Positions 17,405 through 41,864 of a DNA stretch of 64,000 bases are shown here, in pieces. The notes beneath the pieces are model-generated. The model made no database searches and was not told the DNA's origin. It saw nothing but the letters and a program-made list of their open reading frames with translations. The position numbers and the translations under genes are program-made. The first letter of the stretch is position 1; the number at the start of each line of letters is the position of its first letter. Source of the DNA: Sarcomyxa edulis. Taxonomy: Eukaryota > Basidiomycota > Agaricomycetes > Agaricales > Mycenaceae. The DNA lies in assembly GCA_009761415.1 (NCBI GenBank), contig QUOL01000020.1, forward strand, positions 434,001 through 498,000, given 5' to 3'.

Positions 17405-18394
17405 TGTGAGGATACCAGCATCCCCAGCCAAGGAATCGACAACTATACAACAACCTACTCTTATGCGACTCCTCAGACATAGCTAACTACAGAGATACTG
17501 GTGGCATCACCACAAACGACTTACTTTTCGAATGACCGGACACTGAAAGACACCAAGTACCCGCTACTTGACGGTTTCTCCCCGAAAGCGGCCTCTTCAT
17601 CCACTCACCAAACGCTAACCCGCCTTCGGTCACGTCTCAGAACGTTTCGGAATACTTGAAATCACACACGAACAACTTCTCCGAAGGAAATCTACCGCCA
17701 GAACCCAATTCCCTATCGTTGTTTCACCTGACCGAAGGCCCAATGTACTCGATCACCTCTCCGCAGCCCCCTAGATCCTTCGGACAGATCCCAAATCGTT
17801 TCAGCAGGTTCCCTTTCACCTCTAGAAGACCTCATCGAGAGATACTTCACCGACAAAACATTGCCACCAGTCGACATACCGCCAACGTGATGCTTGCTGC
17901 CCTGAGCTGTTCTTCCTATCAAATCGGACATATTCCCTTTACATTGTGATCTCAATTCACACCTTTCCATGCATCTGGACGCCTCGTTAAGACCTCCGTC
18001 CACCCTGACCAAGTGGTGCTACGGAATATTCTTCCCTCTGTGTTTATCACATGACACAGCACTTGTAAGCGAGGTATCGCCCGCTAACAAAGACACTACA
18101 GGTCTCCGCCTAGCAACCCACATCAAATTCACTCTTCTCGGACAACTTTGGCCGTCGCATCTTGGAAAAATCTATCGGAAGCTCCCCATCATCCTGCTCA
18201 CTCGGACATGTTTCATCACTTCACAAATTCACCTTGCAACGCTTTCAGAAAACACCTCAGGCCCTAACCTTTCACACTGAGCGAGGTTCGGACACATCAA
18301 AACCAATACCGGATCTGTTTCATCATTGGAGATCTCGGGGACCTTGGGATGGCACTCGGGGTGAAGAATTAGGCAAGGACAGGGAAGGAATTCA

Positions 18395-18402
18395 TATATA
18401 AA
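18395..18402 (+). promoter_or_regulatory. TATA box in the 5' LTR
   Basis: TATATAAA in the second half of the LTR, oriented with gag-pol. Marks the probable U3/R border. The same box occurs in the 3' LTR and, reversed, in the solo LTR. Confidence 0.55.
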
Positions 18403-18695
18403 GTAGGATAGGACATGGAGAACGGTAGATAGAACCAGTGTGGACGAGAACCAGAGGAACATACCCGAATCGACCAACTACCCAGTCACTCTCTATAGGA
18501 ATTCTATCTCTTTCTCATACTTCTGAAACCGAGACAAGGAACGATTACAGGAGTCGGTCAAAACAAGAGAAAAAGGACTTGATTCAGTCGGCAGTACCAC
18601 TCCCGGAACAAAGGAAGCTCTTCGAAATCAGTCCAGAGCTGTCCGAAACCCTCGAAGCTCTCCGAAATCAGTTCAGAGCTGTCGGAAACCTTCGA

Positions 18696-18923
18696 TAGCT
18701 CTCCGAAGACGTTTTATAACTATACAAAGCATCGGTCAGCTCACCAAAAGCCGTCCGAGGCCCTCGTAGGTTCTCCAAGATCGAACTTATAGCTGTCCGA
18801 AGCCCCCGATAGCTCCCCGAAGACGTATTATAAGCCGTCCGAAGCATCGATCAGCTCTCCGAAAGCTGTCCGAGGCCTTCGTAGGTTTTCCAAGATCGAA
18901 CCTATAGCTGCCCGAAGCCTCTA
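18696..18923. repeat. 114-bp tandem duplication inside the LTR
   Basis: Two diverged copies, 18696-18809 and 18810-18923, each starting TAGCTCYCCGAAGACG and containing a CTCTCCGAA / GCTGTCCGA motif that also recurs just upstream. It lies downstream of the TATA box, so it would be in the transcript leader. Present in all three LTR copies. Confidence 0.7.
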
Positions 18924-19151
18924 AACGGCCTACCGAGAACGATCCTACAAGTCCGAAGCTTACCTTACACCTCATCATCTCATACCCACCTCACCACCAT
19001 ACGAACACATTATCCAAACACAAGTCACTGGGCATTAGGATTTCTCGCTACGTAAAATCCCCTCCGAGAAAACGTCACCTTACCCCCTAGAGGCGAACTA
19101 TAGTTAGGAGTCTAGCCCATCTACTCCTAGCGCCGCAGTCCTCATCACAAC

Positions 19152-19170
19152 TGGAGCCCACCGCGAGGGG
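19152..19170 (+). promoter_or_regulatory. tRNA primer-binding site
   Basis: TGGAGCCCACCGCGAGGGG, two bases after the LTR. It begins with TGG, the complement of a tRNA CCA end, and implies a tRNA with U as discriminator base. The same site occurs next to the LTR of the smaller nested element. Confidence 0.75.
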
Positions 19171-19179
19171 ATTTAAAAG

Positions 19180-21813
19180 GTGTCTACTAGACGAGTTACC
19201 CGAGCCCAAACTCGTTTAGCTGAAGCAGAGCTTCAAGCCTTCTCTCAAACTTCCCGTATACCACATTTATCCGTCGAATATCCACAAAGCGACCTTTCCG
19301 AAGAAACGACTCCGCCCGAATCGTCACCGCTATCGGACGTACCATCAATAAATCTTGATTGGTTGCCATCCCAAACACCTCCTTCCAACATAGATACCTC
19401 AGACGAAGAATTGCTCCCGCGTTCCGTTGAATCGGACACTATTTCAACAGAGGCCTCCCTTACGCCCTCGGAAGACTCGGTTAGCCTAGCCCAGGGAAAC
19501 GAACCGTCAAACAGTTTACCAGCTGAACCCTTATCTCACCTCCAATTGGAGTCTCGAATCCTATCCATCCCTTCCCGCCAAACTTCAACACAAGACCAAA
19601 CGCAGACTCAGCCGCCTCCTCCGTCTCAGATACCGTTACCATCGAATCGCATAACCCCTCGAATATCCCAACCCCGAATACAGAAAAACCTTCCAACAAT
19701 GACGTCAAGACCACCGCCTACCCGGACCAGCAGGGACGCTCCAAAATTTGATGGTCTCGACGAATCTGTTACAAGGTATTTCGAAGACATAGACCAAGTA
19801 TGCACGGCGGCTGGGAAAGCGTCGGATAAAGAGAAAATCGACATGGCTAGGTACTACCTTGGGGCGGAAGACGAATCGCTTTGGAAGGTGGTTACCGCAA
19901 AAGACTGGGACGCCTTCAAATCCGAAGTCCGGAAGCTTTATCCCGGATCAGACGAGAAAAAGAAATATACGCTCAATGATCTAGAGGTCTTGCTTGCAAA
20001 AGAAGCAGCAATACCGATTAACACCAAATCGGACTTTGGAAAATACCATCGATCTTTCACCAGGATATCGCATCATCTCAAAGACCAAAACAAGATCTCT
20101 GCGAAAGAAGAGAATCGCCTCTACGTAAAAGGACTCCACCCGCAGTTCCTGGTCCAGCTAATGGCCCGACTAAAAATCAAGAAGCCCGACCAGGAACTCG
20201 ACGAACCATATATGATCGATGACCTCTACAAGGAAGGCCAACATATCCTAGGAGGACAGGTTCTTTACAGCGGAACACAGACGACTGGAATGGATCCGGT
20301 AGTTAAACAAGAAATAGACGAAATGTCGAGGGAAATAAAGGCGCTTAATAGGGAGTTGGCAGCAAGCATGAGTACGTTGGCAGCGACGTTATCAAACATG
20401 GGGGCAAACCAGGCCATGTCGTACAATAACCGTTACCAAGGCTATGTCCCGGCGCAGGGAAGGGCACCTAACCCATTCCTCGATCGATCCCCTGTCCGAA
20501 GAACTCAAAACGGTCCAGGAAACGGCTCGGTTTGTGCGTTCTGTTCGGACACGTCTCACTTCATTCGAGATTGTCCGAAGGTCGCCGAATTTATCAGAGA
20601 TGGAAAATGCATGCGAAACATGAACGGAAAAGTCGTACTTCCGAACGGAGCATGGGTTCCTTCAAATATAGAAGGAATCAACTTGGCTGCCAGAATCAAC
20701 AGGTACCATGAAATGTATCCGGGGTCAATTATAAATGGCGTCAACTTTGTACGCGATGCACCTCCCCATGCCTCTACCATGTGGTTCGCATCGTCCGGAG
20801 AAACTTCTAGTTCGTACTACAAAGAATCAAGGATCGAGGAGATCGAGGAAGAAGAAGAAGACATCGGAGAAGTCCTAGCAAACGAACAAGCAAGAAAAAA
20901 CCGTAATGGCAAACCGCTGGAACCTACGGAGAAACCTGTACCTGCTATGCGAAGGAAAGGACCCCCCGGACGACCTCAGCCGCTCCCTGACGATCCGGTC
21001 AGCCAAGTTCCTCCCAAAAAGAAAACGGTAGAATTCGAAAAGGATGCGACCGAAGGAAGGAAGCAGGTACAAACTGGTCCGCAGTATAAATTCTCAACGC
21101 CGATAGAAGATCCGGAGTTGGCAAAAAGGGTCTTGAACCGATCACTTGATACTCAAATATCCATCTCACAAAGAGAATTACTTTCGCTTAGCCTAGATGT
21201 CAGAAAACAGTACAAGGAACTGGTGTCTACTAAAAGGATTCCGACGGTTGGACGACTCGAGTCGATTAATCCGGACAACATCGACGAACCGGACTCCAGT
21301 TATATCCTTCGGTACGAAAATCCGAACGGACCGGATGAAGAAATTCTCCTCACGGGCTCATCCATTGAAAAACTCAGAGTAATCTACCCGACTATCGAGG
21401 ATGAAAAGGTCGAATGTGTGTTGGACGGAGGGTCGGAAATAATTGCCATGAACAAGGGACTTTGGCAGAAACTCGGAATACACTTGAGGCCGGACCATAA
21501 AATCACTATGGAATCGGCCAATAGCCAGCATGACACGACTACGGGGCTTATCGAGGACCTTAAATTTAATATTGGAGGACTCGAAATCTATCTGAAGGTC
21601 CATGTGGTGGAAAACGCTCCGTTCGAAATACTAATGGGACGACCATTCTTTAAACTAACGGGATGCGTTACCAAGGACTACACGACCGGAAACCAGGACC
21701 TGACCTTGACCTGCCCTAATACAGGGAAGGTTGTCACAGTTCCAACGTTCGTAAAACCAAAACGATCTTCACCGACATCGGTGGGTTTTCGCCCGGTCGG
21801 AGGCCGTCAGTAG
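19180..21813 (+). CDS. Ty3-type gag and protease
   Basis: Open frame of 877 codons from GTG; there is no in-frame ATG before 19699, where gag proper probably begins (MTSRPPPTRTSRDAPKFDG). The leader part is Ser/Pro/Thr-rich. A CCHC zinc knuckle (CAFCSDTSHFIRDC, near residue 452) marks the nucleocapsid, and a retropepsin follows with active site VLDGGSE near residue 749, where DTG or DSG is usual. LMGRPF is the second protease landmark. The frame ends at 21813 and overlaps pol, which is in the -1 frame. Confidence 0.85.
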   Translation: MSTRRVTRAQTRLAEAELQAFSQTSRIPHLSVEYPQSDLSEETTPPESSPLSDVPSINLDWLPSQTPPSNIDTSDEELLPRSVESDTISTEASLTPSEDSVSLAQGNEPSNSLPAEPLSHLQLESRILSIPSRQTSTQDQTQTQPPPPSQIPLPSNRITPRISQPRIQKNLPTMTSRPPPTRTSRDAPKFDGLDESVTRYFEDIDQVCTAAGKASDKEKIDMARYYLGAEDESLWKVVTAKDWDAFKSEVRKLYPGSDEKKKYTLNDLEVLLAKEAAIPINTKSDFGKYHRSFTRISHHLKDQNKISAKEENRLYVKGLHPQFLVQLMARLKIKKPDQELDEPYMIDDLYKEGQHILGGQVLYSGTQTTGMDPVVKQEIDEMSREIKALNRELAASMSTLAATLSNMGANQAMSYNNRYQGYVPAQGRAPNPFLDRSPVRRTQNGPGNGSVCAFCSDTSHFIRDCPKVAEFIRDGKCMRNMNGKVVLPNGAWVPSNIEGINLAARINRYHEMYPGSIINGVNFVRDAPPHASTMWFASSGETSSSYYKESRIEEIEEEEEDIGEVLANEQARKNRNGKPLEPTEKPVPAMRRKGPPGRPQPLPDDPVSQVPPKKKTVEFEKDATEGRKQVQTGPQYKFSTPIEDPELAKRVLNRSLDTQISISQRELLSLSLDVRKQYKELVSTKRIPTVGRLESINPDNIDEPDSSYILRYENPNGPDEEILLTGSSIEKLRVIYPTIEDEKVECVLDGGSEIIAMNKGLWQKLGIHLRPDHKITMESANSQHDTTTGLIEDLKFNIGGLEIYLKVHVVENAPFEILMGRPFFKLTGCVTKDYTTGNQDLTLTCPNTGKVVTVPTFVKPKRSSPTSVGFRPVGGRQ

Positions 21814-25562: not shown

Positions 25563-26473
25563 TTTTCAATTCACGCTCATCCGGCTTATTTAACAAATAT
25601 CGATTCATATTATACATTAGGAAAGTGCCGTTCGGCAAGGGAAAGGTATACAAGGCTGGGATCCGTGACAAACTAATGAAACAAGCAAGAAGAAATGCAA
25701 GAAAATGGACTTATGTTACAAAAACGCCATTGCGATCTCCTCTTCATCCGCCTCGTCGATAGCATCCTCGATTAACACGCGATATGCCAAACTAATGTCC
25801 TTCATCACCTGATCAATAATCGGGGTCATATGATCGACGACAACGGGGCTTAGCACGCCGAAAGCAGACGAATCCCTGGCACCATCAAGAAGGCGGGACC
25901 TGGAATCGCGAACGATGGCATCCATCTTCTCGCTGCGTGCGATACTGGATTCAGACTGCGGTTGAGGATGATGTTCCGGAGACAGGCGAATAATTGGACG
26001 CCCTGGGTCGATGCGCGGAAACGGGCCAGGGGCGGCGTTATGAAAATCAGGACGGGCTGACGAACTGGCGATTGGGCTTGCTAGGATTCTAGCTTCACCA
26101 GAGACGTCACTTGAAACCATCTCGGGCTTCTTCAGGACCTTGATGCAACCGGTAGCGCGAGCCATTGATTCGCCTAAAAAGGGAAATTTCTACGGTTTCA
26201 ATTATACCCGTCGCCCTGAAGAAAAGGCTTACTGAGATTATCTTCTCCATCTGCGAGACTGCAAACGGATTGCTTTCCTTCGCAGAAGTCGCATGGCCGA
26301 GATCTGAAACCGAGGCAAGGAACATCATCGCGAATACATTCGGAGCATCGGTAGTCCTTGAAAGAAGGGAGTCAGCCGGCTAAAAATATGAAATGAAGCA
26401 AAGGAAGGACCGACTCTGGCTCGAATAAAGTAGAGACGGTTCTTCCTGCCTCTCTGATTCTGCCGTGCCGAGG
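25563..26473. other. tail of the large element between pol and the nested insertion
   Basis: About 0.9 kb. The minus strand is open for long stretches and probably holds the 3' exons of array gene F plus the small frame at 26165-25716. No plus-strand gene seen. Confidence 0.5.
25716..26165 (-). CDS. hypothetical protein or last exon of array gene F
   Basis: Open frame of 149 residues from ATG 26165. Composition is Ser/Pro/Arg-rich in the first half; the end is acidic (EDAIDEADEEEIAMAFL). No family recognised. Several possible acceptors (for example AG just before 26165) would allow it to be the terminal exon of the disrupted gene upstream on the same strand. Whether it is a separate gene is open. 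Confidence 0.35.
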   Translation of the reverse strand: MARATGCIKVLKKPEMVSSDVSGEARILASPIASSSARPDFHNAAPGPFPRIDPGRPIIRLSPEHHPQPQSESSIARSEKMDAIVRDSRSRLLDGARDSSAFGVLSPVVVDHMTPIIDQVMKDISLAYRVLIEDAIDEADEEEIAMAFL

Positions 26474-26477
26474 AAAG

Positions 26478-26754
26478 TGTAGGGTGATGCTGCTTGTTGA
26501 GTTCGGAAGGGGACACGAAAGCTAAGAATGGACAATAGGATGGATTTCGGAGGTAGACACGTAGATACAAGAATAGTAGATAGTGGGAAGAAGGAAGAAT
26601 CGAAAACGACTGTCCAAAAGACTATATGAGCCAGCCTCGTGTGGAATGCATGGAATACGTGAGGTGAAAGAACAATGGGAAAGACATATCTAATCGCACA
26701 GCCGCCGGTGCTGCGATGGCGAGATCCGTGCTCAGCCATACCGGATACCCTACA
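26478..26754 (-). repeat. 3' LTR of the 7.0-kb element
   Basis: 277 bp with 7-bp perfect inverted ends TGTAGGG/CCCTACA; same sequence as 33180-33456 as read. Confidence 0.93.
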
Positions 26755-26763
26755 CCTCCTCCC
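26755..26763 (-). promoter_or_regulatory. polypurine tract of the 7.0-kb element
   Basis: GGGAGGAGG on the minus strand, directly before the 3' LTR; the plus-strand primer in Ty3-type replication. Confidence 0.7.
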
Positions 26764-26821
26764 AACATACAAATATCAACCGTCCCTGGTTGATCCTCTA
26801 ACCTTGAAAAAAAAACGAACC

Positions 26822-29800: not shown

Positions 29801-32668
29801 CCTCTCGTTGACCTTGAGAACTTGAGCTGCGAGTTTCTGTTCCTCGGGCCAAAGAAAAGGATTTTCGAAGATACCCAGGTCGTTTAAACGTTCTTGTGTG
29901 AGTCGATCTCCAGGTGTGAATTCGGGTGGGTAAGGCGAAAGAGCTGGAAGGGTGAGTAAGGGATCCTCGGGGAATCGACGGTGAATCTTGGCGTATTCGG
30001 GCATGACCGTCGAGACTGGAAGAATCCGTTTTGAGACCTTCTTGTAGGCGAGGGAATGGCTGGTGTAGTTCCATGTGAACGTCGAGGAGAGAAGCGCGTC
30101 TGTGAGTGAAGAGTAAGCGCTCGACGGATTAGATAAGATGTAATTCCCATGATGATCGAGATCGACGACTTGATCGATCTTATCTCCAGCCGCCCATGCT
30201 GCCACCACATCCTCGACACACATCGCAAAAGCTCCCTTCTGCTCCCTCTCTCTCACGTTTCTGGCCGACGTCTCCACCACCCTCTCGTTCTTCCTATCCA
30301 TGGGATCCTTCAACTTCACCTGCACCCGCCCGTCTTCGAATTCCACTTTGGCCAACAACACACTGCGCTGCCACGGTCGACCCAGGAGAACTCGATAAGG
30401 TGCGTTTGGAACGACGAACGCATGGGCCCATGTCTTCATGCCATCTACCTCAAACTCCAGGAATTCAGCACAACCCTCCATCGCTTCCTTCCCTCCATTC
30501 GCTGTCTGCATCATCATCATCTTCTCTTTATTCACCTCAAACCCCAATTCCTCCCACAAATCTCGACGAACAACTACGATTTCGGAGCCTTCATCAAGCA
30601 AACCCTTCTCCAGGGACTTCCCACCGACTAGGATATCGATTTCACGAAGCGGGGTGGTGTATTGAAGTGGGACAAAGACTGAGGAAAGAGATGTGGCTGC
30701 TGGACTGGATTTTCGAGTCGACGGCTTCGCGATACGGACGGTGCGTGTATATTCAACTATTTCCTTTCGTAAGTCGCCACTGAGAGATACCAGATCGCCT
30801 ACGGTGACGTTTGGAACCACCGCCTCGAGGATCCTAGTGCGAAATTTCGATGCTGCTTGAGGATCGGCGGCTTTGGACTCGTAGTGGTATGCGGGTTGTC
30901 GAGGCTCGAAATACGGTTCGTTTCTATCTACTTCATCTTCCTTCTCTTCAACCACCTTTTCCTCGACCCTCTCCTTTTCCTTGACGGTATATCTGGCTTT
31001 ATTCATATTTTCCTTCCTCTTTTCCTCTTCATTGACGGTGTATTTCTTTTTATCCCCTTCTCCATCGTTCTTCTTCGTCTCGGACTGCTTACTAACCTCC
31101 ACCCTCTTCGCTTTAGCCCTAGCCTCTGCCCTCGTCACCGCAAAACCTTCCGACTCCAACATTTCCAACTCTTCGATCGCACCCCACACAAACTCGTCTT
31201 CCCCTTCATCGTCACTCTGGTACTCCACTTCCTCCTTCTCCACCTCGACTTCGACCTCAGTAATCACGGCTTGGGTATCTCCTTCAGGGAAAATCTCGAA
31301 AAAATTGGCGGCGGCTGCAGGTAAGTGTGGAGGGGGTTGTCGGTCGTTGGGCATTGCTAATGGCCCTCCCCACCGTTGGTCTATAGCGGCTTTGATTCCG
31401 TCAGGATGACGACGGATCCGGGAACCATCACTGTGTACGTGGAACCCATTTTCGTCGACTCTGGTTCGGCCAGCTCGAGTATATTCTGCAGCTATCGGGC
31501 ACTCGGAAACTCGGTGGGATTCGCCTCGACAAAAGTAACACAAATTGTTCGGCTCGTTCATACGCTGGTCCCAAGGAACTCGAGGTCCGGCTCTGGCATT
31601 CGGTGGATTGGGATAGGACGGGGCGGCGGCGGCGGTTGCAGTAGGAGTCTGCCACGGAGAAGGAATGTGGTTGGCCATAGCAGGTGAAAGCGATACGAGA
31701 CGAGCGTAGCATCCAGCGTAGGCCGCATCGCCGACTCGAAGACCATGTAGCTTCTTGGTGAGTTCTTCGATGTCGTCGAGGTCGCTTTTCTTTCGTGCGG
31801 AATCGTCGAACATAACTTTCTTGGTGCGTACTTCCCTCTCTACCGTCTCCTTTCCCTTCCTTCCCTTCTTCTTCTTCTTCTTCCTTCTCTCTTCTTCCTC
31901 AGACGACGACGACTCACTCTCACTCTCACTGCTACTCTCGTCCTCCTCACTGTCGCTCTCACTATCATCGGAATCCTTCGCCCTCTTCTTTCCCCGCCTA
32001 CGACTCTTCTTCTTCTCCTTCCCACCCTTCTTCAAACGGGTCGCAATCGGATCGTCAAATTCGGCATCGAACGCGTCGTCCGAGTAGACGTATCGACCGT
32101 GCTCGAGGACCTTGTCCATGGTTGGAGGCTTGTCTCGAGTGTAGGTGGGCTCTTTGACTTCGATGCGTTGACGTATGGCGACACGAGCTGTGGGATGTAA
32201 GCCATACCAGAAATACCTATCCAATTCGTCGGTGCTGATTTTCTTCTCGTTTTCCAGCCACTTTGCGACGGGACGAAATTCCTGGTAATAACGAAGAAGG
32301 TCAGTTTCAGAAAGGATTTCTTCACTCACGTTCGCTTTGGTGATCTTCTCCAGGTGTCGTCTCGTGTACTTGACACCCTTGTCTGCACCTGGATAAGCGC
32401 CAATGATGGATGCCTTGAGCACTGGCCAATCTTTGGCTTCGTAACCTGGTAAGCTCATCCAAAACCTCTTTATCTTCTTCTCTGTATACCTTACCACAGA
32501 TGTCGCCTTATCGGCATCTGTCAACTGACAACCATCCGCGACTTCTCCAAACAACTCTAGGAACTCTTTCAACTCGGACGGCTCTCCATCGAAAAACGGC
32601 GCTCGACTCGACTTCACGGGGGGCATGGCCGCGATGCCTGTTCTTGGCGCTCCGGCTTGCTGGGACAT
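26822..32668 (-). CDS. Ty3-type gag-pol polyprotein, single ORF
   Basis: 1948 residues from ATG 32668 with no stop or frameshift. Order: gag with a highly charged Ser/Glu/Lys stretch (about residues 215-285), CCHC knuckle CYFCRGESHRVSEC, retropepsin with LLDEGSEIVVV, then RT (WFCVAKKDG, LPQGWTGS, NFSDDISV), RNase H (VDSSFKACGYILLQ), integrase HHCC (HDKLGHK ... CHLCQ) and DDE (HIDSMYMP, VTDNGTPF, GIIESPHRP). The RT catalytic box reads FSDD, not YVDD. Related to pol of the larger element but fused with gag, so no frameshift is needed. Confidence 0.94.
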   Translation of the reverse strand: MSQQAGAPRTGIAAMPPVKSSRAPFFDGEPSELKEFLELFGEVADGCQLTDADKATSVVRYTEKKIKRFWMSLPGYEAKDWPVLKASIIGAYPGADKGVKYTRRHLEKITKANVSEEILSETDLLRYYQEFRPVAKWLENEKKISTDELDRYFWYGLHPTARVAIRQRIEVKEPTYTRDKPPTMDKVLEHGRYVYSDDAFDAEFDDPIATRLKKGGKEKKKSRRRGKKRAKDSDDSESDSEEDESSSESESESSSSEEEERRKKKKKKGRKGKETVEREVRTKKVMFDDSARKKSDLDDIEELTKKLHGLRVGDAAYAGCYARLVSLSPAMANHIPSPWQTPTATAAAAPSYPNPPNARAGPRVPWDQRMNEPNNLCYFCRGESHRVSECPIAAEYTRAGRTRVDENGFHVHSDGSRIRRHPDGIKAAIDQRWGGPLAMPNDRQPPPHLPAAAANFFEIFPEGDTQAVITEVEVEVEKEEVEYQSDDEGEDEFVWGAIEELEMLESEGFAVTRAEARAKAKRVEVSKQSETKKNDGEGDKKKYTVNEEEKRKENMNKARYTVKEKERVEEKVVEEKEDEVDRNEPYFEPRQPAYHYESKAADPQAASKFRTRILEAVVPNVTVGDLVSLSGDLRKEIVEYTRTVRIAKPSTRKSSPAATSLSSVFVPLQYTTPLREIDILVGGKSLEKGLLDEGSEIVVVRRDLWEELGFEVNKEKMMMMQTANGGKEAMEGCAEFLEFEVDGMKTWAHAFVVPNAPYRVLLGRPWQRSVLLAKVEFEDGRVQVKLKDPMDRKNERVVETSARNVREREQKGAFAMCVEDVVAAWAAGDKIDQVVDLDHHGNYILSNPSSAYSSLTDALLSSTFTWNYTSHSLAYKKVSKRILPVSTVMPEYAKIHRRFPEDPLLTLPALSPYPPEFTPGDRLTQERLNDLGIFENPFLWPEEQKLAAQVLKVNERGLAWNEMEKGRFRDEYFSPVIFPVVPHTPWCKKNLPIPPGIRDKVVDLIKQKVAAGVYEPSTSSYRHQWFCVAKKDGSVRIVHNLGPLNAVTVKDAGQPPLVDQYADQCSARSVYTGLDLFVGYDHRTTDPISRPYTSFDTPLGTHQLTVLPQGWTGSLPIFHNDVAFILQDEVEIAPNFSDDISVLGPKTRYELDEGGYEVIEENKGVRRFIWEHLTDVNRVLHRLKHAGATVSAKKLFLCRPELVVVGQLSTYEGRVPDKSTVIKIKTWPPCEDISEVRGFLGTAGTVRIWIQDFAEISRPLVDLTKKDTNFEWLELQQASMDQLKDAVISCPAIRPIDYKSGLEVILAVDSSFKACGYILLQLDTQNRRRPARFGSISWNERESRYSQAKIELYGLFRALHAVRIFIIGVLNLTVEVDAKYIKGMINNPDMHPNAAMNRWIAAILLYDFKLVHVPGKKFKGPDGLSRRRKTVDEGDTDDDGEDWVDEILSAGVWVAAGIEDAKEGGVLKVEVTEMGTVTSLAVTSGYSKVGEGVADEFDLPQNETAVKRDDDLLAIKTYLQSFKQPTSLDGKALQQFVKRASRFFVRGDRLWRRETTGRHQIVIFGKDRLRLLNEAHDKLGHKGFYPTRRNIADRFWWPTLDDDIHWFLKTCHLCQIRSVEKVLIPPTVSIPATLFRKAHIDSMYMPVASGYKYVVHARCSLSGWPEWRKLRKETARTLGSFIFEEILCRWGGLQEIVTDNGTPFVAALDWLAEKYHIHHIRISPYNSRSNGIIESPHRPVRDALVKACEGDITKWPEHAPYIFWAERITTRKSTGFSPYYAAHGVEPLLPFDITEATFLLPDIVSKLSDSDLLALRALQLEKRESDLALIHDRVLRSRFASIKDFERRFANIIHDYAFQPGDLVLVLNKKIEAEAGRKCKPRYFGPMVVAQRLRSGAYRLAEVTGAISRLKFAAFRLIPYYVRSKKQLEVTEFIDPADLAGISDGDEV

Positions 32669-33081
32669 CTTCGACGGCGATACTGACGGACTGGGGACTG
32701 ACGGACTTGGGACTGACGGACTTGGGACTGACGGGACTGCTGGAACGGACGGGACTGATGTTTCGGAACTGAGACTGGATTCTTCGGGAATGGACTGGGA
32801 CTCTTCGTGGACGGACTGAGACTTTTCGACGGACTGGGACTCTTCGACGGACTGGGACTCTTCGACGGGTTGGGACTCTTCGACGGACTGGGACTCTTGT
32901 TTCGACTGAGACGATTTAGGTACGACAGGCGCTTTGCCTTTCTTCGCTCTTGGATTGGGGACTTGGGACGTGGATGGACTTGGTTCGGAGACTTCGGTTT
33001 GGTCGACTCGGTCACGAGCGTACGGCGAGTTGGCGAGACCGACGCGTCGAGGTAGGATTCTACTCGGCGGAGGTGGCTCAC
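32614..33081 (-). CDS. ATG-less leader frame of the 7.0-kb element
   Basis: Open frame of about 155 codons between the primer site and gag, starting from GTG. It is Ser/Pro/Lys-rich with short repeats (SPSK units) and overlaps gag in another frame. Whether it is translated is doubtful. It is listed because the larger element has a similar Ser/Pro-rich ATG-less leader at the same place. Confidence 0.25.
   Translation of the reverse strand: MSHLRRVESYLDASVSPTRRTLVTESTKPKSPNQVHPRPKSPIQERRKAKRLSYLNRLSRNKSPSPSKSPNPSKSPSPSKSPSPSKSLSPSTKSPSPFPKNPVSVPKHQSRPFQQSRQSQVRQSQVRQSPVRQYRRRRCPSKPERQEQASRPCPP
32682..32899. repeat. short tandem repeats in the 7.0-kb element leader
   Basis: A 15-bp unit (CTGACGGACTTGGGA) repeats three to four times around 32682-32735, and an 18-bp unit (GGGACTCTTCGACGGACT) about five times around 32806-32899. 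Unit lengths are multiples of three, so the leader frame stays open. Confidence 0.7.
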
Positions 33082-33155
33082 GCCGTCGAGGGGGAATGGT
33101 TGGTTTGAAAGGTTTTCGGTGGTTGGGAAAGGTTCAAGGCCAATTCTTTAGCCTT

Positions 33156-33176
33156 GTCCCCTCGCGGTGGGCTCCA
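33156..33176 (-). promoter_or_regulatory. primer-binding site of the 7.0-kb element
   Basis: TGGAGCCCACCGCGAGGGGAC on the minus strand, 3 nt inside the 5' LTR. The first 19 bases equal the primer site of the larger element, so both use the same tRNA. Confidence 0.75.
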
Positions 33177-33179
33177 ATA

Positions 33180-33456
33180 TGTAGGGTGATGCTGCTTGTT
33201 GAGTTCGGAAGGGGACACGAAAGCTAAGAATGGACAATAGGATGGATTTCGGAGGTAGACACGTAGATACAAGAATAGTAGATAGTGGGAAGAAGGAAGA
33301 ATCGAAAACGACTGTCCAAAAGACTATATGAGCCAGCCTCGTGTGGAATGCATGGAATACGTGAGGTGAAAGAACAATGGGAAAGACATATCTAATCGCA
33401 CAGCCGCCGGTGCTGCGATGGCGAGATCCGTGCTCAGCCATACCGGATACCCTACA
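33180..33456 (-). repeat. 5' LTR of the 7.0-kb element
   Basis: 277 bp, TGTAGGG ... CCCTACA; followed by duplication AAAG at 33457-33460. Confidence 0.93.
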
Positions 33457-34166
33457 AAAGTGCTCGATGAGCCTCAGCTGCTGGAAGCACGGTGATTCTG
33501 GGTACAGGGGAGCCTGTGATTTTTTTCGACCGACGGGTAGACCGCCTGGCCTGCTTCTTCCTTGGGGAGTCACTTTCGGGTTCGACATCACTAGTGGCTA
33601 AACCATTCGGGCGCGAGCAGTTTTTAATAATTAACCTACGAGCCCGGGAGGAGTACTTACAAGAATCGGCTGGTTCGTCGCTCGAAAGCTCAGGATCGCA
33701 GCTAGCAATAACCATGGTGCGCGGAAGATTATACGAAATAGCTTCAAGAATAAAGTCGGGAACGTAGGGGAAATTGTTGATGAACTTTATGACAGAAGAA
33801 TTCAGCTCCGGGAAATTGTGGAAGCAAGCTGGTGGCGTGCTGGGATAACCGATCGATAAAAGGTTAAACATCATGGATCTCAATTCCTTCGATGATTTCG
33901 TGATACGATCAGGCATTAGCTGCCTGTACACGCCAAAAAGTGACCCGGGAATTCGTCTAGTGGATACAAGGGCGCTCCGCTGACTAGCCGAAAGGTTTCG
34001 TAAATCGACATCACCAGAGAGGGCGGACAAGAGAGGTTGCGCAACGGTGCCATCCAGAATATCTGAACAAGATTCGTTAGCAAACCGACATAGACGATAA
34101 AGGAGTTCACAAACCATAAATTGACCGGTTGAACCTTCCAGTCGACGTACGGGTAGTGGACGACAT
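33457..34166 (-). pseudogene. antisense array gene F, interrupted by the 7.0-kb element
   Basis: Likely exons 34166-34115, 34062-33661 and 33597-33457, with good branch-point and acceptor signals (GCTAACG ... TTGTTCAG). The third exon is cut at the CTTT duplication and its frame continues on the other side of the insertion at 26473 for about 50 codons. RRIPGSLFGVYRQL and NFPELNSSVIKFI resemble the IPSE and FPEF regions of array genes B-D. After that come an acidic stretch (DVEPESDSP) and a basic one (KKQARRSTRRSKK) that could be a nuclear localisation signal. The 3' end is unresolved. No known family. Confidence 0.5.
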
Positions 34167-34839
34167 ATCTGATTCCTGACGAAGTGAAAAAGGATACTGT
34201 AACGAAAAGAGGTTTCGAGAACAAAAGAACTCTCCCAGATAAATCTCAGCCCGGATATCTCCAGCCACGTGGAAAGAAGCCGAATCGATTGCCGAAACGA
34301 TAAAGCCTTTGGTAAACAACCGCTCACAAGAAAGAAGAACGATGGTCTATAAGGTGGAAGAAAAAGGGGAGGGGGAATGAATTAAACCTGGAAGTCAAAA
34401 TACGAACGTCAAATTGGAAGAACACGAAAGGAAGAAATACGAAGAACCGAAATACGAGACAAGCAAGAAAGAATAGTATGGTTGGCGCATGGGGCTTATA
34501 ACCTCAAATACGGAACGGATAGAGAGCGACGGCTCTCCTGTACACAGTGACGAAATACTGCGAAAAGACACGGACGACAAACGATCGAAAGAAATTGGAA
34601 GAAAACGACTATGCGGGGTTCGGAGACGGTAGATCTGGCTGGCCAGCGGATCTACCGACGCAGACCGAACCCAATTATGCGCTGATATGATTAAAAGTAT
34701 GCAACTCACGACGTTTTACAGATTTACAAGGAGACCGAGACGCTATGCCTCACACTATGCAAAATTATGAACGAATTATGCGCCTGTTATCAGGCATTTA
34801 TTTTACAAGAGACAAGGAATCGGAAACTCATCGGACGGT
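34167..34839. other. spacer between array genes E and F
   Basis: About 670 bp. Contains TATAAG motifs on the minus strand near 34350 and 34497 that could serve gene F. Open frames here have no match to the array proteins. Confidence 0.4.
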
Positions 34840-35775
34840 CTACAGAATGGTAGTATCAGGCACCGCTCCAGCTCCTCGACGATTAACCCTTGCCCCTCCG
34901 CGACCTCTCCCACGCGTCGCAGCGTTCCGAGGATCTACCTGTCCGAAAGCTCCAGGGCCGAAATGAACTTGGTGGAGGCCTCCGAGACGAGGATCGGGAA
35001 CGTCTCCGTGAAGACGGACCTCTTCAAAGCCCTCTTTCACGGGAAACCTCGCAACGAAGGGGACAAGAGGATATTGAGGAGCGGGAAGAACAGGATTGGG
35101 AACGAAAGCCGCCCGCAATCTGAGCAGGTCGTTAACTTGCTGCTGCTTCATTTCGGGGAGCACGCCGTACACGTTGTACGCATCGGACGACTCAAATCCA
35201 TCGAAATCCAGGGCAGTTCCGACGTATCCGACCTAGAAAAAGACGAAAAGAAATAAATCAACGAAGAATGAGAACCAAGAAATATGTAAAACGTGCCTGG
35301 GCAACCATCTCGCTCTTCACCGACGACAAAAGATACCCAACGTTCCTAACGTTGACCGCAACGTAGTCCCCCTCGAAACCAAAGTTCTTCAGAAAGAACT
35401 CGAGCATGGCGACGGTAGTGGTGGCTTGAGCGGGAATTGGAATGGTATCCCAAGAGCCTGATTTAATGGCTTCGGAGGCTCGGAGTTTCATAGCTTGATG
35501 CTGGACGGACGATGTTGAAAGAGGAACGATGAAGGAAAAACAAGCGAGCCGCTTACTACGTAATTGACGATCCGGGTGAGGAGGGTCCTGACCCAGAGCC
35601 TTTCCTCGAGAGGAACGTCCGTCGGACACCTCCCATTTACGGAGAGATGAACGATGCCTAGGAGGCTACGAATTGACCGAGACCAGATGGTGGTCGGAGA
35701 CCTCTCATTTTCGAGGTCGGGATCCTGGGGATTTTCGGGAAAGCGATTTGCAGACAAACGGAGAATAAAGGACAT
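34840..35775 (-). CDS. antisense array gene E, unknown family
   Basis: Exons 35775-35557, 35500-35297, 35232-34840; 271 residues. The first intron is phase 0 at the position shared by array genes A-D; the second has a GC donor (CAG|GCACG). Exon 1 ends with RSIRSLLGIV and LLTRIVNYV, matching the LRPM region and the pre-intron helix of the relatives. Exon 2 has IPIPAQATTTVAMLEFFLKN then FGFEGDY, the counterpart of IPSEVSRMMEF then VGFHGDW in gene B. The C-terminal 100 residues are Pro/Gly/Arg-rich and end with RGRGRGG repeats, perhaps RNA-binding. A TATATAAA box lies 52 bp upstream. No signal peptide. No known homologue recognised. Confidence 0.7.
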
Positions 35776-35826
35776 CGTCGATGGAACTTTACTGACTTAA
35801 GGATCAGAGCAAACGATTCGGGGAGG

Positions 35827-35834
35827 TTTATATA
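35827..35834 (-). promoter_or_regulatory. TATA box of array gene E
   Basis: TATATAAA on the minus strand, 52 bp upstream of ATG 35775 and 43 bp from the stop codon of gene D. Confidence 0.55.
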
Positions 35835-35876
35835 TGCAGACTACAATAAGTGGCATATGATTCTGGGAGCGTTACT

Positions 35877-36595: not shown

Positions 36596-36636
36596 GGGCT
36601 CTGCGGTGACCTGTACGGAGGAATTGATTCACCCTC

Positions 36637-36642
36637 TTTATA
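36637..36642 (-). promoter_or_regulatory. TATA box of array gene D
   Basis: TATAAA on the minus strand, 42 bp upstream of ATG 36595. Confidence 0.5.
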
Positions 36643-36680
36643 CTAAAAATATCGCGCTATTCAGCTATCGGACACCCCTT

Positions 36681-37276: not shown

Positions 37277-38339
37277 TTTGGCCGGAATAACGATGGCTAT
37301 CCTGCGCCAGCTGGCGTTCTTTATACCTCATCGGACTTAGGACTGACGTCTCGGACCGATAAGAGGTGTCCGAACGGACTCCGTGCAGCCACTGTTAACC
37401 GTTGGATTTTCCGGACCGTGCCTTATCAGAAGCAGTAAAGACGCATGTTCTTCGGTATAGATGCTCACGGAACGATTGCGAATGCCACATGCAAAAGAAC
37501 ACGAGCTGGCCGCCACGTCGCGCCGCTACCCTGGGACCATCTTTTCGACTATTGTCGCAGGTCCTTGCCTCACCTGATACACTTCGCCGTGTCTCGTTCC
37601 TTCGCAAAGATTTCGCAAGATCGCGGTCACATCACCCGCACACGTATTAACCCGCACAGTCTCAACTGCGCCGTAAGAACAACGACGATCCGGACGCAAG
37701 CCACCTCGATCTAAACGGCCATGACTTCATGAAGCCACTGGCGCTTGACGGCTGTCGGCTTTGAGCGCTGTAGAAATGCAACTGCATCATCTTGAAGAAG
37801 AGAACAGCATCTTGCGCCGGCCGAGTTATTGAACGGGACGAGAAGATCATCCTGACATCGCATATCGGCGAGGCTACGGAAGAACGAAATGATGACCAGG
37901 CCACTGAGCGATATAGCGAAACTGTAAAGGAGAAAAGCTCTGAAAGCATTAATAACCTCTCTCCGTTCTCATCTCACTCGCCTTCCCTCTGAACTTTCCT
38001 CTCATCAAGAGCCGCTGACTGAGTTACGAACTGTCCGCGATTCAAAATGTCTGCGCACAGCGGGTGGAATCATCGGACATCGGTACCCTTTATAAAGGAG
38101 GTTGGGAGGCTGCCCGAGACCGTCGTTGCCCTCCGAACCGACAGTGCATTCCATAAACTACAAGATATTCAAACGCGGCACGCGAAAGGAGTGTTTATCC
38201 GTTAAAGTACCAACGACGACAAAAACCCCCTCGGTCACATCCAGGAAAGCTTCCCCGCTACGCGTGCGTTCTGAAATGCGAATTTCCGACTATTAGTATC
38301 CCTCTGAGGGGCCCAAAGAACGAGACCGACGGCGCCTGC
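37277..38339. other. gap in the array, possible decayed member
   Basis: 1.06 kb between genes B and C, where other neighbours are 85-101 bp apart. A TATAAA on the minus strand at 38089-38094 is placed like the promoters of the other members, but the sequence behind it has stop codons in all frames and no clear IPSE or LRPM motif. Confidence 0.35.
37320..37325 (-). promoter_or_regulatory. TATA box of array gene C
   Basis: TATAAA on the minus strand, 44 bp upstream of ATG 37276. Confidence 0.5.
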
Positions 38340-38929
38340 TTACCAGAACACCAGGTCCTCAAATTCGGGATACTCCTTTGCCCCGCCAGTCAATGAAGCG
38401 TTAACGTCGGCCTCATCTTTTAGTGACTGAAGCATTTCCCTCCTCTGACCGACGCTGCTGAGGGCCCAGTCCCCATGAAATCCGACCTTGTCATAAACGA
38501 TAAGACTGAACTCCATCATACGGGATACCTCTGAAGGAATTTTAAATTCGGCGGCGTTGGCATCGGTCCTGGCCCGCTGACGGTATGCAACGATGAGTTC
38601 CTGCGCAGAAGGATTTTTTTTAGTATCTCTGCGTTGCCCCGCTGAAAAACGGTGGAAGCCCGTACAACGTTCTCGACGAAAAACCGCATAAGCCGCCTCG
38701 ACAGCGTATACTGCCCGATAACGCTATCGGTGTCATCGGGAAATGCTGTCACCCTATGGGGAAGCGTCGCCTGGATGACACCGAACATCATACGAAGGCG
38801 TTTGCGGAAGAATCCATCGAAGCCCTCGTGCGGATAGAAGACGGGTCGAATAAAGGACGGGACGTTCAGCGTCATGAAGTAGTCGCAGAGTCTCTCGCGA
38901 GCCATTTGCATACTGCGGGCAGGCATTTC
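38340..38929 (-). CDS. antisense array gene B, unknown family
   Basis: Exons 38929-38666 and 38600-38340; 174 residues. The 65-bp intron is phase 0 and has a clear branch site (ATACTAAA) and CGCAG acceptor. Exon 1: GFDGFFRKRLRMMFGVIQAT and SRRLMRFFVENV. Exon 2: ELIVAYRQRA, KIPSEVSRMMEFSLIVYDKV, GFHGDWALSSV, RREMLQSL, GAKEYPEFEDLVFW at the end. TATAAAC lies 26 bp upstream of the ATG. Closest in layout to gene C. No known domain recognised. Confidence 0.75.
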
Positions 38930-38954
38930 GATTTTCAACACGAAAGGACTCGTC

Positions 38955-38961
38955 GTTTATA
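38955..38961 (-). promoter_or_regulatory. TATA box of array gene B
   Basis: TATAAAC on the minus strand, 26 bp upstream of ATG 38929 and just beyond the stop codon of gene A. Confidence 0.45.
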
Positions 38962-39021
38962 TGTACATGAAGACTGCATGCCCTCGATCACCTCTCCGAA
39001 CCCTTCCCTCTTCTCGCCGCC

Positions 39022-39960
39022 TCATGCCCCCGACAAGCCGTTTAGTCCCTGTTCAATAATCGCTGCCCCGCCAATCAAACCGTTCCTCTCCTCTTCGGAT
39101 AACGTCTCCAAAAGCAGGCGAAATGCCCCGTGTGTTGCCAAGCTCGCGAGTGGCTGGACTGTGCCTCTCCGATCAGCTCGTTGCCGCACCGCTAAAGTGT
39201 CAGAATTCTTACCGGACAAGGCCCTTTCTACCTCGGCCACCTCCATTTCTTCGTCCTCGTCGTCCGTTGCAATACTTATGACGGATATGCCTTCGTCTTC
39301 GTTGTTAGCCGGATTCTCTTCCCCTTCGAGGCTGTTGCCCCTTTCCGTACTAATCGTACCATCTCGATGTACCCTGGGACCGCTGTATGGATGCTTCTTC
39401 AACACGGCATGCGCATGGAACCGACCACGCGGGTCCGCCTCGATGTAATCGAAAGCGACGCCAAATGTCGATCGGCGGGCATATTCTTCTATGAAGTACA
39501 AGATAACGTCGACCTTATGTGCCTCGTCCTCGTCCTGATCCCCGGAAAACCCTACGACGTGGACACATCGCTGCACCTGGTAAACGGCGGTCACTGCTTC
39601 CTTGGGAAACGGCTCCGTGGTATCGTCCATGCACCTCCCCTTCAGTACCCATCTAAGTCTGAGCATGAATACCTTAACCTTCGCAATTAGCACGGACCCC
39701 CTGAAAGGCGCACACGCACTCACCATGTGCTGGCACAAGATTTTAACGTGCTTTCTCAACGTGTATACACCGTGACTCGAGAACTCCGGAAGGAGAACGT
39801 CCGCCACAGCATCTTGAAAAATGCAGCTGACGACTAGGTGAACCATGGGACGGATATTGTTACGCAGGTATCCGAGGAAAGTTGCCATTGTAATATCGCC
39901 ATCTATCCCGTCCAGATCGAGGCAGCGCGTAAAGAAGAGTTCTTTTGCTATGGGATCCAT
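39022..39960 (-). CDS. antisense array gene A, unknown family, longest member
   Basis: Exons 39960-39724 and 39678-39022; 297 residues if the 45-bp intron (GTGAGT ... GCGAAG) is removed. The intron is a multiple of three with no stop, so retention would give 312 residues. Exon 1: TFLGYLRNNIRPMVHLVVSC and KHVKILCQHM before the intron. Exon 2: EPFPKEAVTAVYQVQRCVHV aligns with the IPSE helix of the relatives. A C-terminal extension of about 150 residues has an acidic run (DDEDEEMEVAEVE) and no counterpart in B-D. First gene of the array on its strand, next to the 3' LTR. TATAAAT 46 bp upstream. Confidence 0.68.
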   Translation of the reverse strand: MDPIAKELFFTRCLDLDGIDGDITMATFLGYLRNNIRPMVHLVVSCIFQDAVADVLLPEFSSHGVYTLRKHVKILCQHMVSACAPFRGSVLIAKVKVFMLRLRWVLKGRCMDDTTEPFPKEAVTAVYQVQRCVHVVGFSGDQDEDEAHKVDVILYFIEEYARRSTFGVAFDYIEADPRGRFHAHAVLKKHPYSGPRVHRDGTISTERGNSLEGEENPANNEDEGISVISIATDDEDEEMEVAEVERALSGKNSDTLAVRQRADRRGTVQPLASLATHGAFRLLLETLSEEERNGLIGGAAIIEQGLNGLSGA

Positions 39961-40005
39961 TTGGCTTGTTGCTTTCAGGAAAGCCCTGGCTGTCTTGACC
40001 TTGGA

Positions 40006-40012
40006 ATTTATA
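40006..40012 (-). promoter_or_regulatory. TATA box of array gene A
   Basis: TATAAAT on the minus strand, 46 bp upstream of ATG 39960 and about 110 bp from the 3' LTR. Confidence 0.5.
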
Positions 40013-40110
40013 GGTCCTTGGCCGGTCGTCCTTGCCCTGTTTCGGTCACGGACACGCTGTTGTGTTTGCCCTCCGGATGATCGACCGGGGACGGTCGATA
40101 TTTAAAAGTT

Positions 40111-40119
40111 AGGAGGAAG
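40111..40119 (+). promoter_or_regulatory. polypurine tract of the 24.5-kb element
   Basis: AGGAGGAAG directly before the 3' LTR, on the gag-pol strand. It shows that this LTR is the true 3' LTR and that the antisense array is internal to the element. Confidence 0.75.
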
Positions 40120-41864
40120 TGTGAGGATACCAGCATCCCCAGCCAAGGAATCGACAACTATACAACAACCTACTCTTATGCGACTCCTCAGACATAGCTA
40201 ACTACAGAGATACTGGTGGCATCACCACAAACGACTTACTTTTCGAATGACCGGACACTGAAAGACACCAAGTACCCGCTACTTGACGGTTTCTCCCCGA
40301 AAGCGGCCTCTTCATCCACTCACCAAACGCTAACCCGCCTTCGGTCACGTCTCAGAACGTTTCGGAATACTTGAAATCACACACGAACAACTTCTCCGAA
40401 GGAAATCTACCGCCAGAACCCAATTCCCTATCGTTGTTTCACCTGACCGAAGGCCCAATGTACTCGATCACCTCTCCGCAGCCCCCTAGATCCTTCGGAC
40501 AGATCCCAAATCGTTTCAGCAGGTTCCCTTTCACCTCTAGAAGACCTCATCGAGAGATACTTCACCGACAAAACATTGCCACCAGTCGACATACCGCCAA
40601 CGTGATGCTTGCTGCCCTGAGCTGTTCTTCCTATCAAATCGGACATATTCCCTTTACATTGTGATCTCAATTCACACCTTTCCATGCATCTGGACGCCTC
40701 GTTAAGACCTCCGTCCACCCTGACCAAGTGGTGCTACGGAATATTCTTCCCTCTGTGTTTATCACATGACACAGCACTTGTAAGCGAGGTATCGCCCGCT
40801 AACAAAGACACTACAGGTCTCCGCCTAGCAACCCACATCAAATTCACTCTTCTCGGACAACTTTGGCCGTCGCATCTTGGAAAAATCTATCGGAAGCTCC
40901 CCATCATCCTGCTCACTCGGACATGTTTCATCACTTCACAAATTCACCTTGCAACGCTTTCAGAAAACACCTCAGGCCCTAACCTTTCACACTGAGCGAG
41001 GTTCGGACACATCAAAACCAATACCGGATCTGTTTCATCATTGGAGATCTCGGGGACCTTGGGATGGCACTCGGGGTGAAGAATTAGGCAAGGACAGGGA
41101 AGGAATTCATATATAAAGTAGGATAGGACATGGAGAACGGTAGATAGAACCAGTGTGGACGAGAACCAGAGGAACATACCCGAATCGACCAACTACCCAG
41201 TCACTCTCTATAGGAATTCTATCTCTTTCTCATACTTCTGAAACCGAGACAAGGAACGATTACAGGAGTCGGTCAAAACAAGAGAAAAAGGACTTGATTC
41301 AGTCGGCAGTACCACTCCCGGAACAAAGGAAGCTCTTCGAAATCAGTCCAGAGCTGTCCGAAACCCTCGAAGCTCTCCGAAATCAGTTCAGAGCTGTCGG
41401 AAACCTTCGATAGCTCTCCGAAGACGTTTTATAACTATACAAAGCATCGGTCAGCTCACCAAAAGCCGTCCGAGGCCCTCGTAGGTTCTCCAAGATCGAA
41501 CTTATAGCTGTCCGAAGCCCCCGATAGCTCCCCGAAGACGTATTATAAGCCGTCCGAAGCATCGATCAGCTCTCCGAAAGCTGTCCGAGGCCTTCGTAGG
41601 TTTTCCAAGATCGAACCTATAGCTGCCCGAAGCCTCTAAACGGCCTACCGAGAACGATCCTACAAGTCCGAAGCTTACCTTACACCTCATCATCTCATAC
41701 CCACCTCACCACCATACGAACACATTATCCAAACACAAGTCACTGGGCATTAGGATTTCTCGCTACGTAAAATCCCCTCCGAGAAAACGTCACCTTACCC
41801 CCTAGAGGCGAACTATAGTTAGGAGTCTAGCCCATCTACTCCTAGCGCCGCAGTCCTCATCACA
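40120..41864 (+). repeat. 3' LTR of the 24.5-kb element
   Basis: 1745 bp, same sequence as 17405-19149 as read, including TATA box and 114-bp repeats. Followed by the duplication ACGC (41865-41868). Confidence 0.93.

Follow-up and report, generated by a model that had tools for sequence, protein, structure and literature searches.

A multigene array antisense to gag-pol moves with a young Ty3-type LTR retrotransposon and occurs in two element families of Sarcomyxa edulis

Plant Ty3 elements are known to carry antisense open reading frames (ORFs) downstream of pol (PMC7264820, PMC11963269). Retand, a plant Ty3 element, resembles the element described below in that its excerpted description gives antisense ORFs in the 2.9-6.6 kb that separate pol from the 3' LTR, a predicted DNA-binding domain, tandem repeats in the element, and recently active clusters without some gag-pol domains (PMC11963269). 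It differs in that one domain, TRP28, is common to nearly all its clusters and in that its ten defective clusters miss single domains (PMC11963269, same excerpt), whereas the present array has six to seven intron-bearing genes over 7.6-10.1 kb, no TRP28, and a variant, class III, without recognisable gag or pol. For the antisense-ORF (aORF) elements Grande and RIRE2, a nuclear location of the Grande product has been reported; these are plant elements, and the excerpted text describes no paralogous multigene array in them (PMC7264820). VANC proteins of VANDAL elements bind short motifs that have accumulated within the transposon encoding them, and the excerpted account shares with our element a family-specific, partly tandem short motif and fast-diverging element genes (PMC5735166). 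However, VANC binding and the accompanying loss of methylation are experimental results, while here motif accumulation alone was observed, from sequence, and the present motif, unlike that of VANDAL, also lies within coding DNA. Bdelloid LTR elements with a captured ORF3 are similar in having accessory genes after pol and modular exchange, but each carries a single ORF3, of enzyme, env-like or transmembrane type, in the part of PMC5408684 considered. Titles and the first lines of abstracts revealed no array of antisense genes in an LTR element of fungi, and the word antisense is absent from the excerpts of both 'LTR Retrotransposons in Fungi' (PMC3248453) and 'Giant Transposons' (PMC6431247).

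The window analysed here is a stretch of 64,000 nucleotides, of which positions 17405-41864 are one young Ty3-type LTR retrotransposon, the carrier of the array. Its features, in window positions, are the following.

17401-17404, no strand: target-site duplication (TSD) ACGC, left copy
17405-19149, plus strand: 5' LTR, 1745 bp, TG...CA ends, with the 7-mer TCGGACA/TGTCCGA eight times
19152-19170, plus strand: primer-binding site (PBS) TGGAGCCCACCGCGAGGGG (written ACTGGAGCCCACCGCGAGGGG directly 3' of the 5' LTR)
19177-21813, plus strand: gag-protease ORF, 878 aa
21720-25562, plus strand: pol ORF, 1280 aa, with Pfam RNase H and integrase zinc domain
25716-26477, minus strand: gene F, 3' part, with zinc-cluster-like cysteines at about 26261-26347 and the C-terminal domain
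26478-33456, minus strand: later nested Ty3 element, TSD AAAG, outside the carrier lineage
33457-34381, minus strand: gene F, 5' part, conserved N-terminal domain
34843-35775, minus strand: gene E, 3 exons, 270 aa
35877-36595, minus strand: gene D, 2 exons, 216 aa
36681-37276, minus strand: gene C, 2 exons, 179 aa; 31 loci match both exons
37574-38112, plus strand: decayed host-mRNA fragment between genes B and C, one 54-bp intron absent
38340-38926, minus strand: gene B, 2 exons, 173 aa
39022-39960, minus strand: gene A, about 293-312 aa, two intron models scoring equal
40109-40119, plus strand: polypurine tract TTAGGAGGAAG (written AGGAGGAAG directly 5' of the 3' LTR)
40120-41864, plus strand: 3' LTR, same sequence as the 5' LTR
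41865-41868, no strand: TSD ACGC, right copy

The two LTRs (17405-19149 and 40120-41864) differ at 0 of 1745 positions, and the element has the end structure of Ty3/Gypsy, with TG...CA LTRs, PBS, purine tract and a short TSD. An earlier note on this DNA had described two 1745-bp LTRs without a difference, as well as the primer site, the purine tract and the duplication ACGC, and all of these were located at the element ends. Pfam domains in gag and pol follow the order protease (PR), RNase H (RH), integrase (IN) zinc domain, in agreement with gag-PR-RT-RH-IN, the RT region being assigned solely by 57% similarity to the pol of the nested Ty3 element; RVT_1 and rve had no Pfam match in the carrier pol itself. 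From the pol stop to the 3' LTR there are 7578 bp, the nested element left out, and this interval holds six minus-strand genes, in good agreement with the estimate of about 7.5 kb of minus-strand genes beyond pol. The genes, intron-bearing by gene model, lie in the order F-E-D-C-B-A opposite to gag-pol, gene F being separated into its 5' and 3' parts by the nested element. Pfam gave nothing above cut-off for any array gene, including the antisense TRP28 domain (PF04195). A protein database search returned one match per query (P0001, P0002, P0003), with source 'lgn' and contigs of about 1 kb.

Using the proteins of genes C and E, we found 31 array loci in the same genome, some of them truncated or split, which rules out a chance or assembly join of two elements. 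The same LTR adjoins the array in 12 of 12 fetched loci, as seen in sequence for 11 and from coordinates for one. The array is thus also carried by other copies of the LTR family, which was the test of the earlier proposal of a lineage transporting its own accessory cluster, and the proposal is supported by the 31 loci and this adjacency. Genome-wide, genes C and E had no match at E<=0.01 outside two element families, and matches to gene F (class II N-terminal query) were confined to these elements. Because the array accompanies the LTR in other copies and C and E had no match elsewhere, the cluster belongs to the lineage as an integral component that inserts together with it. In the second family (family 2), pol is 78% identical to that of the carrier, and the array is collinear and corresponds one-to-one, its genes being 32-57% identical and a seventh gene, X, standing where the carrier has the host-mRNA fragment. 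Class III, a variant block without gag-pol, is present in 15 of the 31 arrays, the lack of gag-pol having been checked in sequence for three and by coordinates for seven more. The LTR and genes E-A form one nearly identical block common to elements with and without gag-pol. These data show that the array moves with its element and occurs in two element families.

Across 11 copies, pN/pS was 0.10 for gene A, 0.02 for B, 0.07 for C, 0.18 for D and 0.10 for E; no exon indel was found in A-E, and one stop codon occurred in one gene of one copy (gene A, copy C3). Within classes I, II and III, pN/pS was 0.082, 0.102 and 0.093 (5, 4 and 3 copies), the low class III values for E-A being not independent since they recombine with full-element E-A. 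Class III has its own F gene, whose N-terminal frame is open in 15/15 loci, with dN/dS of 0.03-0.08 at pS of 0.37-0.64 in three copies. In gene E, the second exon falls into two frames at C25:106.7 kb, and likewise in family 2 at C5. Judged by these substitution patterns, genes A-E are under purifying selection and the array proteins are selectively kept. Since selection keeps the genes even in copies without the jumping genes, the element itself probably benefits from the cluster.

Gene F carries six cysteines in a pattern like that of fungal Zn2Cys6 proteins, spaced CX2CX6CX7CX2CX6C in 8 of the 9 class I-III copies searched; in the ninth, the zinc region lay outside the piece searched and the pattern was read by eye. 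Read in the same way, family 2 has CX2CX8CX7CX2CX6C, where X8 replaces X6. Pfam Zn_clus was not matched above gathering score: class III F gave E=0.015 and 0.082, and F of class I, class II or family 2 gave no match. A CGG/CCG-containing, family-specific motif is spread over the LTR and body of each family (in the LTR, 8 against 0.3 expected and 22 against 0.8 expected). In gag and pol, the observed counts were reached by 1 to 16 of 1000 synonymous-codon shuffles, a comparison that falls short of a full null, as 7-mers of the nested element picked post hoc also exceed shuffles. Classes I and III differ in the zinc region of F despite having the same LTR, so the motif may be read by a protein other than F.

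We give an even chance to the reading that the array proteins work on the DNA of their own element, regulating it or counteracting its silencing. Transcription of the array genes would start at promoters of their own or at antisense promoters in the LTR, and their introns, being reversed in the genomic RNA, would survive the RNA stage. Their products would recognise the family-specific motif filling the LTR and hold the element transcribed or un-silenced. Copies without gag-pol would be mobilised in trans by full elements via the common LTR, PBS and purine tract, and if each copy benefits only from its own array, they too must retain an intact one. A more tentative step, which we hold possible but somewhat doubtful, is that the selected unit is the LTR together with the antisense multigene cassette cognate to it, with gag-pol optional; gag-pol-less lineages would then be long-lived, retaining nothing but a protein set of their own for anti-silencing or regulation, which would match a family DNA code in LTR and body. 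The roles of regulator and host-defence modulator named in the earlier note are compatible with the evidence. By analogy, the best reading is that the array follows the logic of VANC or of the Retand antisense ORFs and belongs to neither. VANDAL is a plant DNA transposon and the carrier here a retroelement; if the products are motif-specific anti-silencers, the VANC principle would be extended from DNA transposons to a retroelement. The present case offers a multigene form of such arrays at 31 loci, together with another, diverged family, elements that naturally have no gag-pol, and clear selection on the proteins, so that the function of such antisense genes can be tested directly.

Alternatively, the array could code particle or trafficking factors, such as an env-like or RNA-export module. 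Env and retroviral accessory genes lie between pol and the 3' LTR, where the array also sits, and the predicted gene A model is all-helical, although of low confidence like both AlphaFold2 models (pLDDT 59.9 and 56.4). A Foldseek search with the gene A model gave no PDB match at E<=0.001 (best E=4.2), and no envelope-like sense ORF was seen, since Pfam matched neither of those present (161 and 274 aa). This explanation is unlikely, since the array is antisense to gag-pol whereas env lies in sense orientation, the cysteines of F resemble a zinc cluster, and the family-specific DNA motif is left unexplained. We likewise consider it improbable that the array serves transposition directly, for example through integration-site choice or through packaging that favours the copy encoding it. 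Matched TSDs are NCGN in 9 of 9 cases, a sharp site preference, and class III elements retain the array; however, integration is normally determined by pol, and the nested element, which is related, lacks an array. That antisense transcripts rather than proteins act, as RNA regulators or small-RNA sources, is very unlikely: regulation of LTR elements by antisense transcription has been proposed (PMC7264820, in excerpt), but per site synonymous changes exceed replacement changes in every one of the genes A-E, as well as in the N-terminal domain of F.

Capture of host sequence does happen here, as shown by the spliced host-mRNA fragment within the array, from a source gene on the minus strand of L030; the earlier suggestion of captured host genes is not supported for C and E, no host locus being found at E<=0.01. 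Least probable is that the array is captured host cargo kept for benefit to the host, against which stand also the gene-by-gene match across two diverged families and the very young age of the copies (0-2 LTR differences in each of eight elements compared).

The reading in the earlier note of a single 24.5-kb insertion including a later 7-kb nest holds, by the LTRs and TSD ACGC of the carrier and the TSD AAAG of the nest. The nested element has 277-bp LTRs that are 100% alike and a minus-strand gag-pol frame of 2103 aa, and it had no match in any other fetched array locus. At the nest site, the two flanks meet and overlap by 4 bp in four class I copies, and the flank alignments end 25 bp apart in four class II copies. 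The PBS letters of the carrier are the same as those after the 5' LTR of the nested element. As to the recombinase gene into which the carrier inserted, a preference for such genes was rejected, this recombinase being matched in 0 of 7 other stretches tested. The frame was said to be restored on removal of the block, which is correct in part: taking out the element alone leaves 297 aa open, and the full 443 aa requires that a second insertion be left out too. This second insertion, at 42112-43860, is a solo LTR in inverted orientation, and it is flanked by a TSD of its own, CCGC.

The anatomy of the carrier element was confirmed as the earlier note had read it, with identical 1745-bp LTRs, a primer-binding site (PBS), a purine tract and the 4-bp target-site duplication (TSD) ACGC at its bounds. 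The later nested element proposed in that note proved to be an independent insertion, absent from the other loci fetched. The features in the window are as follows.

17405-41864: carrier, a Ty3-type LTR retrotransposon with minus-strand genes F-E-D-C-B-A (the array) between pol and the 3' LTR
26478-33456, opposite strand: separate nested Ty3 element with 277-bp LTRs and TSD AAAG
37574-38112: fragment matching a host gene
42112-43860, inverted: solo LTR with TSD CCGC
17401-17404, 41865-41868, 42108-42111, 43861-43864: duplicated target sites

At the nest site, the two carrier sides meet, overlapping by 4 bp, in four class I copies (C36, C1, C11a and C7; C handles are contigs or copies elsewhere in the genome, L handles fetched stretches), and the left and right alignments end 25 bp apart in four class II copies. 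The nested element matched no other fetched locus; its PBS, read in the sequence, has the same letters as that of the carrier. The target gene is one that we take to be tyrosine recombinase-like, and a Pfam scan of its two pieces gave no hit. The solo LTR (98%), of the same family as the carrier's LTRs, lies in the same gene, 0.25 kb from the element. Removing the carrier restores the recombinase frame, as had been proposed, if the solo LTR is also removed; without this the frame is not whole.

The suggested search for other array copies in the same genome gave 31 matches each for the first and second exons of gene C and for the last exon of gene E. A search with the first half of the array found it in 33 places (all 33 candidates scored), and the LTR gave at least 40 matches (40 scored among 90 candidates). 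The RT search gave 94 matches among 103 scored: 15 at 98 to 100% identity, 6 at 88%, and one at 80%, followed at 51 to 58% by the nested type and six others. Every match to exon 2 of gene C contains a single TAG; in the window, this triplet closes the intron directly before the exon. Exon 2 of gene E is spread over two frames in 1 of 31 matches (C25:106.7 kb), and truncated or split arrays exist (e.g., C8:5.6 kb, C38:371 kb, C38:1741 kb, and C2:1483 kb). By the gene model, the second intron of E has a GC donor at 35296 instead of GT, as in GC-AG introns. Outside the two element families, neither gene C nor gene E was matched at E ≤ 0.01 in the genome search. Several array copies, on C7, C8, C11, C17, and C25, are located at contig ends or close to them, a placement that may reflect subtelomeric or centromeric clusters.

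In the family of the window (family 1), the LTR and genes E-A are co-inherited, being common to classes I, II, and III, while gag-pol is present in class I (five copies, that of the window included) and class II. Compared to the window, class II is about 99% identical in gag, 97.6 to 98.7% in E-A and 97 to 99% in the LTR (94% in C3); its pol drops from about 97% to 89 to 93% toward F, a gene with a zinc-cluster-like cysteine pattern, and the stretch running from the pol end across F is at 75 to 84% (four fetched copies). Between the end of pol and F in L016, L018, L021, and L025, divergence climbs between near-identical flanks, a variable block within a homogenised element. Class III consists of the 5' LTR, the PBS, a 2.6-kb block with a different F gene, and then E-A, a layout read in sequence in three copies (C34, C40b, and C6c). 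No recognisable gag-pol was found in these three, the best match being a 30-residue gag stretch in C40b (E = 0.03). Seven more copies, assigned to class III by the coordinates of LTR, block, and array, have no 5' room for gag-pol (C6:870 kb, C11:458 kb, C8:11 kb, C3:470 kb, C38:1737 kb, C38:378 kb, and C2:1504 kb). The class III block matched 15 loci (one in two pieces) and one partial locus. The N-terminal frame of F is open in class III (15/15 loci), full class II (10/10), and class I (5/5). One copy without gag-pol, C40b, has grown through a nested DNA transposon (L026-L028, C40:1104-1119 kb) whose ORFs resemble those for a KDZ transposase and for a TET/JBP-like dioxygenase.

Within-class and between-class distances of E-A overlap (class II-III minimum, 0.05%), indicating that flanking modules were exchanged while the F blocks remained distinct. 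LTR pairs differ by 0 to 2 bases in the eight elements measured, including two of class III (C6 and C40b), and insertion was therefore recent.

The array proteins are under selection. Over 11 copies, pN/pS was 0.10 for A, 0.02 for B, 0.07 for C, 0.18 for D, and 0.10 for E, with no exon indels and a single stop (gene A of C3). By class (12 copies), it was 0.082 in I (5 copies), 0.102 in II (4), and 0.093 in III (3), and in seven copies 0.040 for gag-PR and 0.058 for pol. Wrong-frame controls gave 1.77 to 3.97, apart from one opposite-strand frame at 0.13, as expected if it shares wobble positions. The most clear-cut test concerns the N-terminal domain of class III F (98 codons), a variant restricted to the class without gag-pol: three pairs gave dN/dS of 0.08, 0.03, and 0.06 at pS of 0.58, 0.37, and 0.64, indicating that a protein-coding gene has been preserved in elements without gag-pol while they diverged for a long time. 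Between classes I and II, this domain gave 0.06 to 0.07.

A diverged second family is found at C12 (L034 and L032), with an LTR of about 2.09 kb; the 5' LTR end is 100% alike over 772 bp. Its gag is 66% identical to that of family 1 over 692 residues (41% at the start) and its pol 78%, with an intact 1278-aa frame. The antisense genes within the 10.1 kb from pol to the LTR keep the order of family 1, with a seventh gene, X, lying between C and B; F was identified by visual inspection. As best matches, genes of the two families pair off one to one, at 41% identity for A, 34% for B, 32% for C, 34% for D, and 57% for E (exons 1-2 only; last exon, 38 to 43%). Judged by gene E, family 2 has nine arrays; in the C5 array, exon 2 of this gene is divided between two frames. 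Among the array genes, B and C are clearly related (E = 8e-13), and the weaker pairs A-B, A-C, A-D, and B-E (8e-5 to 1e-3) still exceed one column-shuffled control each. No support was obtained for C-X, D-E, D-X, or E-X in this comparison. These matches make common descent of the full set likely, though not every pair is supported.

Each family also has its own LTR 7-mer: TCGGACA in family 1 (8 versus 0.3 expected from dinucleotide shuffles) and CCGATCG in family 2 (22 versus 0.8; only 13 places, since the motif overlaps its own reverse complement). Both recur in their own family (TCGGACA, gag-pol 10 and array 6; CCGATCG, 12 and 38). In family 2, TCGGACA occurs 0 times in the LTR, 2 in gag-pol and 2 in the array; CCGATCG in family 1, 0, 1, and 2. 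Neither occurs in the nested element; the 35 kb of window flanks contain 6 and 4, respectively. Against synonymous-codon shuffles, family 1 had 4 versus 1.1 in gag (16 of 1000), 6 versus 1.5 in pol (1 of 1000), and 3 versus 0.6 in A-E exons (11 of 1000). Family 2 had 6 versus 1.1 in both gag and pol (1 of 1000 each) and 13 versus 3.4 in array exons (maximum 9 in 500 shuffles). Cross-family counts showed no clear excess over such shuffles. Since 7-mers picked post hoc from the nested element likewise exceeded them, the motif's weight rests on its choice from the LTR. CGG/CCG half-sites suit Zn2Cys6 proteins. Motif copies in the LTR lie partly within internal repeats, as also described for VANC targets (PMC5735166).

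The data establish the structure, its co-inheritance and selection at the protein level. We infer that the array products target DNA of the element itself, given the cysteine pattern of zinc-cluster type, the family-specific motif, the joint inheritance of LTR and E-A, and the fact that elements without gag-pol have retained the array. Relatives are not confined to this assembly: homologues elsewhere amount to three fragments, with identities of 65%, 79%, and 50% and query coverage of 48%, 80%, and 51%, respectively. The literature searches listed no fungal LTR element with an antisense array; the nearest system is Retand.

Matched 4-bp TSDs
ACGC: window, C36, C7, C3
GCGT: C1, C6
GCGG: C40b
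GCGC: C12
CCGC: solo LTR

All nine are CpG-centred NCGN, with a chance probability of about 2e-11 (CpG frequency, 0.065); the count leaves out C11a and C11b, where both ends were seen and the flanks are unlike. Single ends of C40a, C17, and C11:6 kb are also NCGN. By eye, the flanks of the C1 and C3 copies (L012-L013 and L021-L023) contain gag- or integrase-like frames, and the family may land in other transposons.

The fragment at 37574-38112 matches a host gene (L030, minus strand) in sense over four stretches (75 to 91%). At its last junction, a 54-bp GT...AG stretch is missing, as it would be from a spliced transcript, which makes copying from a host mRNA probable; another junction shows a larger, inexact loss. 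The fragment is present in 12/12 copies, with no match in L032 of family 2. In contrast to this spliced fragment, A-E retain introns, which would have been kept because these genes are antisense to the genomic RNA.
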